Assembly (NCBI GenBank): GCA_020348345.1
Contig: CP070748.1
Location: forward strand, 975,851-1,039,850
DNA: 64,000 nt
Source: Methanobacteriota archaeon
GTDB lineage: Archaea; Thermoplasmatota; Thermoplasmata; UBA10834
Direction of reading: 5' to 3'
Position numbers and translations under genes: made by a program. Below are positions 14,364 to 64,000 of the stretch, piece by piece; position 1 is the stretch's first letter; each line of letters begins with the position of its first letter. The notes under the pieces were generated by a model. It had not been told where the DNA came from. It saw only the letters and a list, made by a program, of their open reading frames with translations, and did not search any database.

Positions 14364-14546
14364 ATGGCTTTCAGTATAAGTAAGCATCCGATGATATTCT
14401 TCGTCACCTTCCCACTCCCGGCGTTGCTCATGGTCCTTGGAGCGATCTTCAATGCGAGTGCGTTCCTGTTCATCATCTGCGGAACATGGCTCGGAGTCGC
14501 TATGATGATTCTCTATCTCCCGATTGAGACAGACTCGGAACAGTGA
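14364..14546 (+). CDS. small two-helix membrane protein, unknown
   Basis: A 60-residue product made almost wholly of two hydrophobic segments (MIFFVTFPLPALLMVLGAIF and the following AFLFIICGTWLGVAMMILY) with a short acidic tail. It starts 32 nt after rpe and is preceded by an ATTAATAT box at 14328-14335, about 32 nt before the ATG, so it may have its own near-leaderless promoter. It ends 65 nt before fen. I do not recognise a family. The simple hairpin layout suggests a small membrane subunit or stress protein, but this is speculation. Confidence 0.55.
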   Translation: MAFSISKHPMIFFVTFPLPALLMVLGAIFNASAFLFIICGTWLGVAMMILYLPIETDSEQ

Positions 14547-14611
14547 TGTCGCGCTCGCGAAGGATATGCCCGAACGAAACATCTAATGCCTGCGCCACTA
14601 TGCTATCCATC

Positions 14612-15631
14612 ATGGGCGTGGACATCTCCGTTCTTGTCAAGGGTGCTCCGCTACGACTCAGTGATTTGGCGGGCAAGGCTGTGGCTATTGACGCGTTCAA
14701 CACCCTCTATCAGTTTCTGACAACGATCCGGCAGCCAGACGGAACTCCTCTCAAGGACAGGGAAGGCAGGGTCACATCCCATCTCTCAGGATTGCTCAGC
14801 CGGAATGCGGCTTTGCTGGAGATAGGGCTCAAGCCTGTGTACGTGTTCGACGGCAAGCCACCGAAGCTTAAGGAGAGGACCATCGCGGCTCGGAGAGAGG
14901 CTAGAAACGCTGCCGAACGCGAGTGGAAGGAAGCCGTTGCAGTGGGCGACATGAAGAGGGCGAAGACGAAGGCGTCGCAATCGACGAGGCTGGATGATGA
15001 CATGATCGCGGAGGCCTTGGCCCTCCTGAACGCTTTGGGGATACCGTCGGTGAATGCTCCGGCGGAGGGAGAGGCTCAGATGGCATTTATGGCATCAAGG
15101 CGAGACGTATGGGCAGGCGCGTCTCAGGACTTCGACGCGTTGCTCTTCGGGACGCCGATGCTCGTGCGTAACCTGACCCTCTCGAAGAAGAGGCGGATGG
15201 CGAGTGGCGAACGGGTTGATGTGGTGCCTGAGCTGGTGGAGCTCGATAAGGTGCTGTCATCGCTTGATCTCAGTCGAAAGCAGTTGGTAGACCTCAGCAT
15301 TCTGGTGGGCACCGATTTCAACGAAGGGGTTCCAGGAATCGGGCCGAAGCGCGCTTTGAAGTTGCTCAGGGAGTTCGGATCGCTTGAACGCGTGTCTGCA
15401 GAGCGCAGGGCGGCAGTTCCCCAGGGCTTCGAGGAAGTGAGGAGCGTCTTCCTCGAGCCAGAGGTGACGGAGGACTACTCGCTGTTCTGGTCGCTGCCGG
15501 ATGAGGAGGCCGTCAGAAGGCAGCTGTGCGATGACCGCGGATTCTCTGTCGACAGGGTCAACAGTGTCCTGTCGAGACTGCGCGCGATACCGCAGTCATG
15601 CGAGCAGAGCAGCCTCGACAGATGGGGTTAG
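14612..15631 (+). CDS. fen: flap endonuclease 1 (FEN1/XPG family)
   Basis: The 339 residues follow the archaeal FEN1 plan: MGVDISVLVKG at the N-terminus (this decides the start; ORFs reaching 14543 add a non-conserved tail), N-domain acidic site AIDAFNTLYQF, VFDGKPP, the I-domain site EGEAQMAFMA and SQDFDALLFG, VGTDFNEGVPGIGPK (helix-two-turn-helix) and a C-terminal PCNA-interacting tail. It removes 5' flaps during Okazaki fragment maturation and repair. The tail QSSLDRWG ends in Trp-Gly where the PIP-box usually has two aromatic residues, so sliding-clamp binding may be weak. Confidence 0.95.
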   Translation: MGVDISVLVKGAPLRLSDLAGKAVAIDAFNTLYQFLTTIRQPDGTPLKDREGRVTSHLSGLLSRNAALLEIGLKPVYVFDGKPPKLKERTIAARREARNAAEREWKEAVAVGDMKRAKTKASQSTRLDDDMIAEALALLNALGIPSVNAPAEGEAQMAFMASRRDVWAGASQDFDALLFGTPMLVRNLTLSKKRRMASGERVDVVPELVELDKVLSSLDLSRKQLVDLSILVGTDFNEGVPGIGPKRALKLLREFGSLERVSAERRAAVPQGFEEVRSVFLEPEVTEDYSLFWSLPDEEAVRRQLCDDRGFSVDRVNSVLSRLRAIPQSCEQSSLDRWG

Positions 15632-15730: not shown

Positions 15731-18700
15731 ATGCGCCAAGTGGACATGAACTACTCCCCCGTCCAGTTGGAGAAGGATATCAGGACGAAGTGGGAGGAGG
15801 ACCGAACGTATGAGAAGGTCAAGAAGGCCTCAGAGTCAGGCAAGCCCTACTACATACTGGACGGTCCACCCTACACCACGGGCTCGATCCACATTGGCAC
15901 TGCCTGGAACAAGGTGCTGAAGGATTGCGTGCTGCGCTTCCGAAGAATGCAGGGTCTGAACGTGAGAGACCAACCAGGCTATGACATGCATGGCTTGCCT
16001 ATCGAGGTCAAGGTCGAGCAGTCGATGAACATAACGTCCAAGAAGGAGATCGAAGAGCAAGGAATGGACAGGTTCGTGGAGACCTGTCGCGATTTTGCGC
16101 AGAAGTTCAAAACCAGGATGACAGACGAGTTCAAGCAGCTCGGAGTGTGGATGGACTGGGACAGGCCCTACTTGACGGTGGACGCAGCGTACATCGGCTC
16201 GGTCTGGTGGACCATCAAGCAGGCCTATGACAAAGGCCTTCTCACTGTCGATCTGCGCGTGCTCCCGTGGTGTCCGAGATGCGAGACTGCGCTGGCCGAG
16301 GCGGAGATAGAGTACTGGGACGAGACTGATCCGTCGATATACGTCAAATTCCCTCTCGTGGACGCGCCAGGCGAGTACCTGTTGATATGGACAACCACTC
16401 CATGGACGATTCCTGGCAACCTCGCTGCTGCGGTCCATCCCGATTTCACATATGCCCGGATGAAGGTCAGGCGAGGCACAACCGAGGAGATCCTCGTCCT
16501 AGTCGAAAGCCGAGTGGATGAGCTTGTCGAGATCGCCCAGGTCGAGGACGCCGAGATATTGGAGACGGTGAAAGGTGCCGAGCTGGTGGGACTGCATTAC
16601 ACCCACCCTCTGAAGGATCTCATCCCGTACCAGCAGCAGATCACGAACGAGTGGGCCCACGCGATAGTTCCCTCCGAGACGGTCACAGACGAGAGCACTG
16701 GCGTGGTTCACATCGCACCAGGACATGGCCCTGAGGATTTCGAGATAGGAGCGGAATTCGAGCTGGAGCCGTTCTCCCCCGTCGACGAGAGCGGCAAGTA
16801 CACGGACGAAGTGGGCGAGGATCTCGCAGGGATGAAAGTGAGAGATGCCAACGACGCTGTCATGATACACCTCGTCGACAGAGGGGCGATGTTCCACGAG
16901 GGCACCGTCAAGCACAGATATGGTCACTGCTGGCGATGCAAGAAACCCATCATCTACCGAGTCACAGACCAGTGGTTTCTCAAAGTGACTGACTTCAAGG
17001 AAGACCTCGTCGACGCCAACAACAAGGTCACATGGTATCCTGATTGGGCTGGCACGAACCGGCAGAACGATTGGATAGCAAACGCAAGAGACTGGTGCAT
17101 AAGCAGACAGAGATTCTGGGGTACACCCGTGCCCATCTGGACCTGCAGCTGCGGCAACATCCGAGTGGTCTCATCTCTTCAGGAGCTGCGAGAAGCCGAC
17201 GGTTATACAGAGGGCATGGACGTCCACAGGCCATGGATCGACGCACTCACATACAAGTGCGACAAGTGCAGCCAGGTAATGAGACGTGTGCCTGATGTTC
17301 TTGACGTCTGGCTCGATGCGGGCGTGTGCTCGTGGGCGTCACTCGGGTATCCGGCGGAGACAGAGGAGTTCGAGAGATGGTGGCCCAGCGAATGGATCAC
17401 CGAAGCACATGACCAGACCCGAGGATGGTTCTACTCCCAACTCGTGACGGGCGTTCTGGCATTCGGCCGTTCCCCGTACAATTCGGTGCTCATGCATGGA
17501 TGGGCGTTCAACCCTGAGGGACAGGCGATGTCGAAGAGCGAGGGCACTGCCATCGAACCTATCAACGTCGTCAATGCCTATGGCGCCGATTCTTTGAGGC
17601 TTTACATCATGAAGGCGAACGCCCCTTGGGAGGACATTCAGTTCCAGGAGGAGGGCGTCAAATCAGCGAACCGCACCCTCAACATACTGTGGAATGTCTA
17701 CAAGTTCGCGGCTCTGTACATGTCGATCGACGGCTTCGACCCGAAAGCCAGGAACTTGGGCGAATTGAGAGAGTCCATGAAGGCCGAGGATCTGTGGATG
17801 GTGTCTCGGCTCGAATCGTTGAAGCGGGACGTTGCGGGCGCGATGGAGTCCTATGAGATTCACAGGGCAGCGAGGGCCATTGAGACATTAGTTCTGGAGG
17901 ACCTCTCGCGATGGTATGTCAAGCTCGTCAGAGATAGGCTGTGGAAGGAGGGTGAGGATATCGACAAGACGGTCGCTTTCAAGGTGCTTCATGAGGCGCT
18001 ATCCACATGCTCGACACTGTTGGCACCGATTACCCCTCACATAGCAGAGGCCATCCACTCGAACCTCGATAGAGCCGAGGAGAGCGTTCACATGGTGAGA
18101 TGGCCATCGCACAACGCTGATTGGATCGATTCCGAGCTCGACCAGGGGATGGAGCTGGTAAGGGAGATATCCGAGGTAATCGCGCGGGTGCGACAGGAGT
18201 CCAATGTCAACCTCAGATGGCCGCTGAAGAGAATCGTTATAAGGCCTCGAACGGACGAGACCTCGAATGCCCTCCAGCGACTCAAGCATCCTCTGTTGGC
18301 ACAGAACAACATCAAGTCGCTTCAGGTCGTGCCTGTCGGAGAGGAATGGGACGAGATGATGCTGAGTGTCATTCCGAACCCGAACGCGATCGGCAAGGTG
18401 TACCGTCAGTGGTCCAGCAAGATCGCCGTTCTCCTGAAGAACCGCCCCGCCAAGGCCGTCAAGGCTGGCGTGGACAAGGGAGAGTACTCGCTCGGGATTG
18501 AGGGACAGCTGGTGAAGATCCTCCCGAACATGGTGTCGTTCACCTCAACCCTCCCGCCGGACGTCGTCTCCGCGGAGTTCAGCGACGGCATCGTTTACAT
18601 CGACCTCGAGGAGACGCCCGCCCTCCAGGCTGAGGGCTTCGCCCGCGAGGTCATAAGACGGGTCCAGCAGATGAGAAAGGACATGAAGCTTGACGTCGAG

Positions 18701-19846
18701 GAGTATGTCCGAATTGAGATCGAGTGCGGACAGAAGCTATCCTCCGCGCTCGAGACGTGGGGGGAACATGTCTCTCGGGAGACGCGCGCAAGGGAGATAG
18801 AGATCGTTGAGGGCCCCAAAGGAGACTACGTCGTCGAATGGAACGTCTCTGGCGAGCCTTTTGTCGTGGGTGTGACGTCGCTCAAGATGAAGGAAGTCCT
18901 GAGGATCATCACAGATGCGGGCATCGGCATGGACAAGGCGCTCAGGCTCTACGACGCGGGGTACAACTCCGCCGAGGCTCTGAAGAATGCCGGACAGGAC
19001 GATGTCGCGTCCATCGAAGGCCTTTCGAGGGCAGAGGCGAAGACGCTTTACGATTATATCCACAGGAACGATGCCAAGGCAGCCGAGGACATCATGCCTT
19101 CCAGGGATACTGCGCTGGCCGCCGAGAGAGCCCCTGAACCACCGGTGGAGGGGGCGTTTATGGAGCAGCTTATGAGGCTCCCTGGGATGGCCGAGGAGGT
19201 GGCGAAGGCGCTTCATGACGCAGGATACATCTCGCCCCAGACGCTCAGAAACACCTCTGTCGATGACCTGGTTAATGTGACTGGGGTGGGTCGGCCTCTT
19301 GCCGAGAAGCTAATCGAGGCATTCTCGGGCGAAGCCGCCTTGGGACAGGACGCAGGAGGCGCTGGACTGCCTGCACCCGAGGTGCACGAGCTTGAGCGAT
19401 CGTTCTCCTATCTGGTGGAGGAGGACCGGCCCGAAGCATCGTACAAGCTCTTCCTGAGCACGTTGGAGAAGGGCATGAAGGGCTACTGCATCACCCGCAA
19501 TTACCCGGCGAAGATACGCTCCAAGTTCGACCTGAAGGACGTCCCTATCGTGTGGTTGTCCAATGTCGGCAGAGACAATTCAATCCGGCCCAAGGACCTC
19601 GAGAAGCTCAGTCTTTCTTTGGAGCAGTTCCTCTCGCAACCCGATGGCGGCATCGTGCTTCTCGACGGCCTTGAATATCTGATCACCAACAACAACTTCA
19701 TCACCGTGCTGAGGCTCATACAGTCATTGAGAGACCAGGTCGCCATAAACCAGTCCATACTGCTGATGGCCGTGAACCGGTCAACCCTCGAGAGTCACCA
19801 GCTGAACCTGCTCGAGAGGGAGGTGGACTACACCATCACCGGATGA
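15731..19846 (+). CDS. ileS: isoleucyl-tRNA synthetase with C-terminal HhH-HhH-DUF835 extension
   Basis: The first about 1050 residues are a complete class Ia isoleucyl-tRNA synthetase: HIGH-type HIGT at 54-57, editing domain with WTTTPWTIPGN, CISRQRFWGTPVP, zinc-type cysteines (CWRCKK, CSCGN, CDKCS) and the KMSKS loop MSKS at 600-603. Archaeal enzymes usually end near 1030-1070 residues. Here the frame continues without a break for about 310 more: a helix-hairpin-helix module at about 1060-1113, a second at about 1147-1199 (LVNVTGVGRPLAEKL), a linker, and a DUF835 domain at about 1224-1368 with its marker ILLDGLEYLI-like strand (IVLLDGLEYLITNNNF). The extension overlaps the convergent Nudix fusion gene by 11 nt. 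The synthetase function is certain; the role of the tail (nucleic-acid contact by HhH, unknown sensor for DUF835) is not known. Confidence 0.95.
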   Translation: MRQVDMNYSPVQLEKDIRTKWEEDRTYEKVKKASESGKPYYILDGPPYTTGSIHIGTAWNKVLKDCVLRFRRMQGLNVRDQPGYDMHGLPIEVKVEQSMNITSKKEIEEQGMDRFVETCRDFAQKFKTRMTDEFKQLGVWMDWDRPYLTVDAAYIGSVWWTIKQAYDKGLLTVDLRVLPWCPRCETALAEAEIEYWDETDPSIYVKFPLVDAPGEYLLIWTTTPWTIPGNLAAAVHPDFTYARMKVRRGTTEEILVLVESRVDELVEIAQVEDAEILETVKGAELVGLHYTHPLKDLIPYQQQITNEWAHAIVPSETVTDESTGVVHIAPGHGPEDFEIGAEFELEPFSPVDESGKYTDEVGEDLAGMKVRDANDAVMIHLVDRGAMFHEGTVKHRYGHCWRCKKPIIYRVTDQWFLKVTDFKEDLVDANNKVTWYPDWAGTNRQNDWIANARDWCISRQRFWGTPVPIWTCSCGNIRVVSSLQELREADGYTEGMDVHRPWIDALTYKCDKCSQVMRRVPDVLDVWLDAGVCSWASLGYPAETEEFERWWPSEWITEAHDQTRGWFYSQLVTGVLAFGRSPYNSVLMHGWAFNPEGQAMSKSEGTAIEPINVVNAYGADSLRLYIMKANAPWEDIQFQEEGVKSANRTLNILWNVYKFAALYMSIDGFDPKARNLGELRESMKAEDLWMVSRLESLKRDVAGAMESYEIHRAARAIETLVLEDLSRWYVKLVRDRLWKEGEDIDKTVAFKVLHEALSTCSTLLAPITPHIAEAIHSNLDRAEESVHMVRWPSHNADWIDSELDQGMELVREISEVIARVRQESNVNLRWPLKRIVIRPRTDETSNALQRLKHPLLAQNNIKSLQVVPVGEEWDEMMLSVIPNPNAIGKVYRQWSSKIAVLLKNRPAKAVKAGVDKGEYSLGIEGQLVKILPNMVSFTSTLPPDVVSAEFSDGIVYIDLEETPALQAEGFAREVIRRVQQMRKDMKLDVEEYVRIEIECGQKLSSALETWGEHVSRETRAREIEIVEGPKGDYVVEWNVSGEPFVVGVTSLKMKEVLRIITDAGIGMDKALRLYDAGYNSAEALKNAGQDDVASIEGLSRAEAKTLYDYIHRNDAKAAEDIMPSRDTALAAERAPEPPVEGAFMEQLMRLPGMAEEVAKALHDAGYISPQTLRNTSVDDLVNVTGVGRPLAEKLIEAFSGEAALGQDAGGAGLPAPEVHELERSFSYLVEEDRPEASYKLFLSTLEKGMKGYCITRNYPAKIRSKFDLKDVPIVWLSNVGRDNSIRPKDLEKLSLSLEQFLSQPDGGIVLLDGLEYLITNNNFITVLRLIQSLRDQVAINQSILLMAVNRSTLESHQLNLLEREVDYTITG

Positions 19847-20579
19847 GTCCGTCCAGCAGCCCCTTCACCACCGCCTCCAACCCTGGCACCGTGTTGTATT
19901 TCCGAAGCTCGGTGGGGTTCACCCATTTGTGTTCGTCGTGCTCCCAATCTATCGAGATGCGCCTCGAGGGAACATCGAAGAGGAATGGATGGACGACCCA
20001 AACCGTATCGCCGCTTCTGAAGCTCTGTGGAGTTGTTCGCGCCGATGGCTTTGTGAGTCTCAGTCCGACCTCCTCCGAGGCCTCGCGCCTCGCAGCGGCG
20101 AGATCACTCTCCCCTTCTTCGATGTAGCCGGAGACACCTGCCCATCTTCCCCGGTACGAGCCGACTTCGTTGCTTCTCTGCAACAGCAATACATCGCCCT
20201 TGTGGCGCAATATGCATGTCACCACATGTCGCTCAAGAACTCCGTCCAGCTCGATTGTTCCTGAGTCAGCGTCCACGAATACATTGTCGCCATTCTCTAT
20301 GAGCGATGTGTCTACGCCATCAATCATGGGTATCTCTGACATGATCGCACCAGTTGCGACTATAGGCTCCGCAACCGTGTTGACAATAGCTGCGGGGGCT
20401 TTGCGATTGAGCTTCAGCTGGTAGATGGCATACGACCCTACCGTGCTCCCCTTGCCGTGCGGAAAGCAGAGCACTCTGCCCTGTACTGCCAGCCCACGAG
20501 ACCCGCATTCTGGGTCGAGTATCTCACCGGTGGAAGTGTCGACTCCTCCGAGGAACGATAATGGGGTATTGCATACCAA
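19836..20579 (-). CDS. phosphomevalonate dehydratase small subunit (AcnX swivel, DUF126) fused to a Nudix hydrolase
   Basis: Residues 1-90 are the AcnX swivel domain (PLSFLGGVDTSTGEI, CFPHGKGSTVGSYAIYQL, APAAIVNTVAEPIVATGAI, ending PMIDG). From about residue 113 a Nudix domain follows with a perfect Nudix box, G-x5-E-x7-REASEEVGL. The large subunit lies 44 nt upstream, so this is the second subunit of the enzyme making trans-anhydromevalonate-5-phosphate in the archaeal mevalonate pathway. The coordinates use the TTG at 20579, but family homology extends about 15-20 codons further upstream (IIRGRKIRSGAARGESLV, to about 20627). No ATG, GTG or TTG exists there, while a GGAGGCGAT site sits just before an ATAATT that contains the large-subunit stop. 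Start from a non-AUG codon is therefore likely. The Nudix half may act on prenyl or mevalonate phosphates, which is inference. Confidence 0.85.
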   Translation of the reverse strand: MVCNTPLSFLGGVDTSTGEILDPECGSRGLAVQGRVLCFPHGKGSTVGSYAIYQLKLNRKAPAAIVNTVAEPIVATGAIMSEIPMIDGVDTSLIENGDNVFVDADSGTIELDGVLERHVVTCILRHKGDVLLLQRSNEVGSYRGRWAGVSGYIEEGESDLAAARREASEEVGLRLTKPSARTTPQSFRSGDTVWVVHPFLFDVPSRRISIDWEHDEHKWVNPTELRKYNTVPGLEAVVKGLLDGLIR

Positions 20580-20623: not shown

Positions 20624-21793
20624 TTATCGTGATATCGCCTCCAATAGCTCTCTTGTGGGGCGATAGGATGTCTTCTGCCTGCCCAGACTGGGAAGGTACG
20701 CTGCAGCCTTGCCTGAGTCGGTTGCCGTCCTGCCATACATCTCCTCGATGGGTGCTACGACCATACAGGTGTCACACAGCACCCTGCCGAATCGCCGCAG
20801 AATCGCCACCGCCTCCGGACAGGTCTTGAACACTCGGCGTGAGGTGCAAAACCACACGTCAGTGTTTTTCAGGGGCTTCCGACCCTTGAGCACAGATGCC
20901 ATGCTCCGCAGCTCTCGAGGAGAGCAATGAGGGCAACCGATCGCGACCAAATCCCAATCGTCCCCGCCTCTCAGGCCCTCGGCGCACCGCATGAGTTCGG
21001 TCTTGCCCAGCACGATCGTCTCTTCGAACGAACGGCTCTTGGGCGGAATCCTGTCGCCCTTGCGGCGGAATGTGTACATTGAAACGGCGCCAGTGGCGGC
21101 TATTGCGGCGCCGAAGGACTTGTGCTGATCGGCAATCATGTTCAATCCATCAATGTGGGGTATCCGATTACCAACAGCCTTGCCCACCAAGTAGCCTGCC
21201 ACAGGGATCAGATGCGTCGGAACGGATTCGAGTCTGACGAGCACTTTAGGCTTCCGGCTCTCATCGAGGTGCAGTCCGTATTCCGCGGTCTTGCCTAAGA
21301 TCGCGGCCGCAAGGGCAGACGGCCCTCCTTCTCGGTTCGTCCTCGCCCCCAGCACCGAGTTGGCGAAGACGGTGGCAGACGATTCCGCCCATGCGAGATG
21401 TTGTCCATCTCTCGGTCTGTGCCCTGCCAGGTAAGGCGTGCAGGAATACACTGGCAGCAAACCCATTGCGCCATATGCTTGCGCTATGCGCATCTGCTTC
21501 TCGTAGAACTGGGAGCTAACGCCCATGGATCGCCATCTTGTCAAATCCATTCCGAGTGGGTTGACCATCGCGGGAACGGACACACGGCCCTCGGTGGCAA
21601 AATCCTCAAGCCATCGTATCCCCGCATCTCCGATGGTCTTGAACGAGGCTCCCGAGACCTGTGCCGATTCGATTTCTATGAGACGCTCTGCTCCGTAGAT
21701 GTCTCCAAGGGCGACCAACAGCTCCATCGCCTTCATGCGGGCTGTGCCTTCCTCGCCCTTCAATACACGCTCCTCATCGCGCGTGAGATGCAT
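20624..21793 (-). CDS. phosphomevalonate dehydratase large subunit (AcnX catalytic domain, DUF521)
   Basis: The 389 residues show AcnX-family landmarks: MHLTRDEERVLKGEEG start, CTPYLAGHRPRDGQH, AWAESSATVFANSVLGA, RTNREGGPSALAAAI, GCPHCS, WFCTS and LCDTCMVVAPI, with cysteines for an iron-sulfur cluster. In archaea this protein with its DUF126 partner dehydrates mevalonate-5-phosphate to trans-anhydromevalonate-5-phosphate. The product is decarboxylated by a UbiD-type enzyme using the prenyl-FMN made by UbiX, which is encoded at 63.2 kb. The ATG at 21793 is chosen over an ORF reaching 21949 because it matches the family N-terminus and a TATA box lies 27 nt upstream. Confidence 0.9.
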   Translation of the reverse strand: MHLTRDEERVLKGEEGTARMKAMELLVALGDIYGAERLIEIESAQVSGASFKTIGDAGIRWLEDFATEGRVSVPAMVNPLGMDLTRWRSMGVSSQFYEKQMRIAQAYGAMGLLPVYSCTPYLAGHRPRDGQHLAWAESSATVFANSVLGARTNREGGPSALAAAILGKTAEYGLHLDESRKPKVLVRLESVPTHLIPVAGYLVGKAVGNRIPHIDGLNMIADQHKSFGAAIAATGAVSMYTFRRKGDRIPPKSRSFEETIVLGKTELMRCAEGLRGGDDWDLVAIGCPHCSPRELRSMASVLKGRKPLKNTDVWFCTSRRVFKTCPEAVAILRRFGRVLCDTCMVVAPIEEMYGRTATDSGKAAAYLPSLGRQKTSYRPTRELLEAISR

Positions 21794-21815
21794 CAGCCAA
21801 TGAATGCTGGCCCGG

Positions 21816-21824
21816 ATATAATAT
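21816..21824 (-). promoter_or_regulatory. TATA-box promoter of phosphomevalonate dehydratase genes
   Basis: ATATTATAT on the minus strand is centred 27 nt before the ATG at 21793, which predicts a leaderless mRNA for the large and small subunits. Confidence 0.65.
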
Positions 21825-22038
21825 GGTGATGGAACGGAGAGGCGGGCCTGTCGGGATATTCGGGGAACAAGAACTCGTTCGCCTTTCGAACCCGAGTTCG
21901 GGGCTTTCCCTCCCGCGAATGGCGGTCCGGAGGCCCCTGTGATGTCCAAGCTACACTACAGGCCCTGCTCGTCCGAAAGCGCTGTCCGTATTTCTATGTT
22001 GGCACTCGAAGACTGAGACGCTGGCATTCCTATGAGCC

Positions 22039-63770: not shown

Positions 63771-64000
63771 TCGTGTATCTCGTCGAACTCGTCGCTCAGT
63801 CCTTTGAACTGCTCCTCCTCCATGCTGGACTTGTCCGCATGCATCAGAATAGTGGAGCCATGTATTGCTGCGAGATCGTTTATGCGGCGCACATAAGCGA
63901 GGACCTTGTCAAAGCCGCTCAGCTCTATGAGGGTCGCAAGGCCGTCGATCATCAGCCCCGCACGCTTCGTCGTCATGAGGAATGTGGATGCCGTCTCCAT
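63761..64000 (-). CDS. DUF835-family protein, 5' part cut by window edge
   Basis: The C-terminal 79 residues (RAGLMIDGLATLIELSGFD, then KVLAYVRRINDLAAIHGST and ILMHADKSSMEEEQFKGLSD) match the C-terminal half of DUF835. The frame is open to the window edge, so the N-terminus, which often carries a sensor or other domain, is missing. The same domain sits on the tail of isoleucyl-tRNA synthetase in this window. KaiC/Rad55-like proteins end in a similar way and are an alternative. Confidence 0.6.
   Translation of the reverse strand: METASTFLMTTKRAGLMIDGLATLIELSGFDKVLAYVRRINDLAAIHGSTILMHADKSSMEEEQFKGLSDEFDEIHDYL

Follow-up and report, generated by a model that had tools for sequence, protein, structure and literature searches.

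The isoleucyl-tRNA synthetase (IleRS) encoded in the window, by which we mean the whole stretch of 64,000 nt analysed here (CP070748.1 positions 975,851–1,039,850, forward strand; GCA_020348345.1, Methanobacteriota archaeon, UBA10834), is a complete synthetase with an ancient C-terminal (HhH)n-DUF835 appendage (HhH, helix-hairpin-helix) that occurs across one class of Thermoplasmatota. The tail is retained by relatives whose catalytic motifs have eroded, which argues that it is more than an aid to charging. Because such eroded copies persist, and because the genome to which the window belongs presents the mirror case, we consider it highly probable that the tailed protein performs a second function that can be separated from charging.

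Architecture of the tailed IleRS

The open reading frame (15731–19846, + strand) runs from ATG to TGA without interruption, encodes 1371 aa and scores 950 bits against the NCBIfam profile ileS (TIGR00392; cut-off 621). IleRS proper (residues 1–1048; 15731–18874, +) shares with other archaeal-type enzymes of this family the catalytic, editing, anticodon-binding and DUF5915 domains, and is matched by Pfam tRNA-synt_1, Anticodon_1 (residues 687–834; 17789–18232, +) and DUF5915, the C-terminal IleRS module (residues 860–1048; 18308–18874, +). The HIGH region (PYTTGSIHIG, residues 47–56; 15869–15898, +) is intact by a motif table of 102 IleRS cores, as is, by motif comparison, KMSKS in the form AMSKS (residues 599–603; 17525–17539, +). 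HIG and AMSKS are accompanied by WTTTPWT and APGHGPEDF, a set that includes the CP1 editing motif. On these motifs the protein is apparently an active enzyme; it has not undergone the loss of HIGH or KMSKS that marks a pseudo-synthetase.

What distinguishes it from other archaeal-type IleRS is about 320 extra residues, arranged as (HhH)2-DUF835, which lie beyond the catalytic, editing and tRNA-binding domains and are missing from some orthologs. HhH unit 1 (residues 1051–1121; 18881–19093, +) corresponds to the second of two stretches matched by HHH_5 (PF14520; 61 bits, cut-off 27) and to helices in the AlphaFold2 model. The best stretch (residues 1145–1198) falls in HhH unit 2 (residues 1140–1198; 19148–19324, +), which also has a RadA N-terminal-like match and is seen in the model. 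DUF835 (residues 1225–1371; 19403–19843, +) is identified by Pfam (PF05763, residues 1233–1364, E = 1e-34, 119.7 bits against a cut-off of 33.1, profile positions 4–135 of 136), by AlphaFold2 and by Foldseek. The AlphaFold2 model of residues 1041–1371 (mean pLDDT 89.6) contains two multi-helix HhH units, flexible linkers and a compact DUF835 at 1225–1370; a sequence search against solved structures gave a clear match for the HhH part only. The original prediction of an IleRS with two HhH modules and a DUF835 domain is thus borne out by profile scores and structure prediction, with its domain coordinates correct to within a few residues. No description of the fusion was found in the literature searched, in which one paper mentions DUF835 by name.

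An assembly or frameshift artefact fusing two genes has a negligible probability. The same fused frame recurs in many independently assembled genomes, single-contig as well as draft, across 27 families, which rules out a frameshift or an overlooked stop codon around position 18,880.

Upstream lies a gene for a FEN1/XPG-type nuclease (14543–15631, +; Pfam XPG_N and XPG_I), present at 14 of 19 related ileS loci and also beside the tail-less ileS at locus L026. The convergent neighbour encodes an AcnX_swivel-NUDIX fusion (19836–20579, −; Pfam) and recurs at 17 of the 19 loci, including the tail-less L027; it is followed by an AcnX gene at 20624–21949. The two products are probably the subunits of phosphomevalonate dehydratase, the small one with a NUDIX extension. 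Many intact ileS genes have FEN1, RPE and AcnX genes as neighbours, but none of these was found next to eroded copies, and the neighbourhood therefore offers no clue to function. The small ORF that recurs beside eroded copies is only the tail's antisense shadow.

Distribution of the tail and constraint on DUF835

A scan of genome contigs together with 400 genomes of the class revealed an in-frame tail on the IleRS of 27 of the 35 families sampled, a count that includes f24, from open-frame length and coordinates only, and f4, with a tail in two of the four genomes read. The architecture is unusual, as originally proposed, but its recurrence across the class shows it to be ancient and rules out a peculiarity of one genome. 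The tail is absent from f21, most of f6 and part of f29, whose IleRS are nested within the tailed group in our tree. At L026 and L027 the absence represents true loss, since the gene neighbours are those of tailed ileS. Loss in several lineages indicates that the tail is dispensable for charging; in the f21 and f29 genomes the tail-less orthologs are the only IleRS found.

Outside the class, the strong DUF835 matches that were read in a sample of 116 genomes of the phylum belong to V4R-DUF835 proteins, and in four of these five genomes an IleRS was found, with an open frame (1074–1091 aa) too short for a tail; absence outside the class is thus a statement about this sample and not a proof. Among the IleRS examined, those from Archaeoglobi and from other phyla do not carry the tail, nor do most of those of host-associated Methanomethylophilaceae type.

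The HhH count varies, with one unit only in close relatives and inserted zinc ribbons in some relatives. The tailed frame at L149 (genome G042) reaches 2929 residues; additional HhH units and zinc ribbons separate its core from DUF835. Two pseudo-synthetases of f4 (L253 in G003 and L295 in G028) carry three HhH units together with a segment resembling a zinc ribbon and have lost DUF835, which is retained by their f4 relatives L293 and L294.

DUF835 modelled alone (pLDDT 94) is predicted to adopt a KaiC/FlaH-type RecA fold, with Foldseek matches to FlaH (4yds, TM 0.69), the KaiC-like PH0284 (2dr3, TM 0.76) and KaiC chains (TM 0.63–0.72). Unlike KaiC and FlaH (ArlH), it has no Walker A: the motif GxxxxGK[ST] occurs in 0 of 93 DUF835 domains, so that no conventional ATP binding is expected and the tail is presumably not an ATPase. 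A census of archaeal two-component and signalling proteins describes the domain as ‘iKaiC’ and reports it on response regulators with REC and PAS domains (PMC5847659). The same Pfam family and RecA-like fold are found here on a synthetase; outside IleRS, DUF835 is joined to REC, PAS and V4R domains. The window's genome holds about 12 DUF835 copies, including one V4R-DUF835 protein, and another DUF835 protein (63782–64000, −; a 632 aa frame) runs past the end of the window. At L159 and L160 the domain lies close to the start of a very long protein (about 1600–1790 aa by open frame) with an apparent coiled coil after it, and proteins of this type lie about 28 kb from ileS in several relatives from f1, the window's family.

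DUF835 is under more constraint than the synthetase core in f1. Across f1 including the window, the core averages 75.6% identity, HhH units and linkers 35.4% and DUF835 89.5%; between the window and L119, pN/pS is 0.085/0.708 in the core and 0.056/0.681 in DUF835, where only pN against pS is considered because dS is near saturation, dN/dS ratios having been dropped. Twelve positions are invariant in an alignment of 42 sequences (R1256, P1259, K1261, W1275, L1276, P1287, L1290, N1321, F1323, Q1331, D1335 and E1364). Whether IleRS-linked DUF835 forms one clade could not be resolved from 148 alignment columns.

Eroded and paired synthetases

KMSKS is found in none of the 18 tailed IleRS inside seven families (f4, f7, f12, f17, f22, f25 and f28) and in all 34 outside them. 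Families f4, f7, f22 and f28 and part of f12 lack HIGH as well, and f7 has also lost the CP1 editing residues. From these motifs we infer a loss of catalysis in the eroded copies. A second IleRS is present in all 16 genomes checked among the 18 (G063 and G079 being left out): 13 are complete IleRS2-type enzymes with HIGH and KMSKS, those of G033 and G074 are partial, and that of G066 is truncated, of archaeal type and may be contamination. In a quick LG+G4 tree, to be read with caution for its long branches, the tailed copies with eroded motifs fall into a single clade (SH-aLRT 92); the grouping of their IleRS2 partners matches theirs in broad terms. The pattern probably reflects one IleRS2 takeover followed by gradual erosion, for which reason the seven families are not independent.

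The eroded frames, at 1300–2900 aa, remain open, and in f7 a pN/pS of 0.19/0.74 indicates purifying selection. DUF835 again exceeds the core in identity, with 74.9% against 51.6% in f12, f17 and f22 and 63.0% against 38.6% in f7, and is 98% identical between two f25 genomes. Within the synthetase body of f7, f28 and f4 the best kept part is DUF5915 (36–50% identity to the window, against 21–34% for the catalytic halves), whereas in intact enzymes elsewhere it is the catalytic halves; DUF5915 is about level with the N-terminal catalytic half in f12, f17 and f22 and in f25 (46–48%). The anticodon-binding domain of copies without catalytic motifs stands at 30–33%. A tailed protein kept for family-level times without its catalytic motifs must do something else.

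The window's genome is the mirror image of the eroded families, with an intact tailed IleRS and a tail-less copy without KMSKS. This second gene (G000:C1:402126-404582, locus L239; 747 bits, 1038 aa) is IleRS2-like (PTTRNRPHMG) and has KIEAE in place of KMSKS. The motif is missing from all nine IleRS2-like copies sequenced in f1, and the copy is conserved in all f1 genera sampled, under purifying selection (pN/pS about 0.13/0.70 between close pairs); the tailed f1 gene has HIGH and KMSKS in 7 of 7 cases. Tailed and tail-less genes both lie on contig C1 in G000 (the window's genome), G061 and G140, so contamination is not the reason for the pair.

Coexisting IleRS1/IleRS2 pairs are known (PMC4861432, PMC10485003), and two types per genome are found here too; the difference is that one copy has lost catalytic motifs and is nevertheless kept, and which one varies by family. 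The archaeal genomes of f19 carry a second IleRS whose HIGH is replaced by GVHH (L243, L284 and L285); it resembles the bacterial IleRS2 in which this motif is linked to mupirocin hyper-resistance (PMC10485003). In several f1 genomes an AsnRS-like gene adjoins the IleRS2-like copy without KMSKS, and in the f7 genomes G006 and G030 one lies directly upstream of the tailed IleRS without catalytic motifs; loci with an AsnRS-like gene beside an eroded IleRS are L323 (G000:C1:396000-411000), L310, L316, L242, L282 and L286–L288.

A probable second function and its alternatives

Affinity-raising appendages are common on synthetases, and the tail may do no more than aid charging, with HhH units that strengthen tRNA binding or keep the enzyme on the ribosome and with DUF835 as a structural cap. 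The resemblance of the HhH units to the N-terminal extension of L32e and to NusA fits such a role, which is unlikely all the same: the tail, with DUF835 its best conserved part, is kept where HIGH and KMSKS have eroded, and in f21 and f29 genomes orthologs without it are the only IleRS found. It is quite unlikely that the eroded copies are instead kept for their synthetase body, complexed with or editing for the active IleRS, and that the tail is incidental. That the body is open and constrained, and that f1 offers the reverse case, in which a tail-less copy without KMSKS accompanies an active tailed enzyme, would agree with this; against it, f7 has also lost the CP1 editing residues, and constraint on DUF835 exceeds that on the body. 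As for decaying pseudogenes, an evolutionary leftover suggested by active-site erosion in seven families, the long open frames, the f7 pN/pS values and the near-identity of DUF835 between the f25 genomes already contradict them and make them highly improbable.

A further candidate is a RadA-like DNA-side module tying the synthetase to recombination or repair. The whole tail finds Rad51/RadA in Foldseek, with the same order of HhH then RecA fold, HhH unit 2 has its RadA-like HMM match, and a FEN1 gene lies upstream. Unlike RadA, the tail has no P-loop, its number of HhH units is variable and some copies have zinc ribbon insertions; DUF835 alone is closest to the FlaH/KaiC fold, and the FEN1 neighbour is shared by the tail-less L026. 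We regard this candidate as very unlikely.

The explanation that we prefer is a bifunctional IleRS, which would charge tRNA(Ile) in the window organism and have a second role needing no catalysis; as a whole it has an even chance of being right, and for the window organism the second role is suggested by analogy with its relatives. A tRNA(Ile)-linked regulatory scaffold, whose chance we put just short of even, could work as follows. The IleRS body, through its anticodon-binding domain and DUF5915, would still recognise tRNA(Ile), the property that the body is most likely to have kept because these two parts persist. The flexible HhH units would add further contacts with tRNA or ribosomal RNA, though that they have a precise nucleic-acid target is doubtful because HhH units and linkers evolve fast (35% in f1) and the units drop to one in close relatives. 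DUF835, presumably a non-ATPase, would dock on a partner protein, a likely role because it has no Walker A and because it accompanies signalling domains in other proteins. Occupancy or charging of tRNA(Ile) would thereby be passed on to translation or to a regulator. In certain clades a newly arrived IleRS2 would have assumed charging and left the old enzyme with the second role only. Loss of DUF835 in two of the four f4 pseudo-synthetases read, with three HhH units kept, counts against this explanation. The original suggestion that DUF835 could tie charging to a regulatory signal gains indirect support only, from the retention of the tail by relatives with eroded motifs.

Most known synthetases with a second function are eukaryotic, and GCN2 is a synthetase-derived regulator with a HisRS-like domain. 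The eroded relatives resemble GCN2 and other synthetase-like proteins (reviewed in PMC9437257) in having a synthetase body without catalytic motifs joined to other domains; they differ in being IleRS-derived and archaeal, with a RecA-fold end domain, and the window protein differs further in apparently still being an active enzyme. The tailed protein could be an archaeal tRNA(Ile)-sensing regulator that works much as GCN2 does, its IleRS part acting as the sensor and its non-ATPase KaiC fold providing the output, and that arose from an enzyme which continues to do its original work. This reading is doubtful; if true, it would show the stages from a bifunctional enzyme to a pure pseudo-synthetase.

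DUF835, a family of unknown function, gains a concrete setting for a partner search. One archaeal class provides a natural series in which the tailed IleRS is the sole enzyme, one of two, or retained without catalytic motifs, and the second function is thus separated from charging without mutagenesis.
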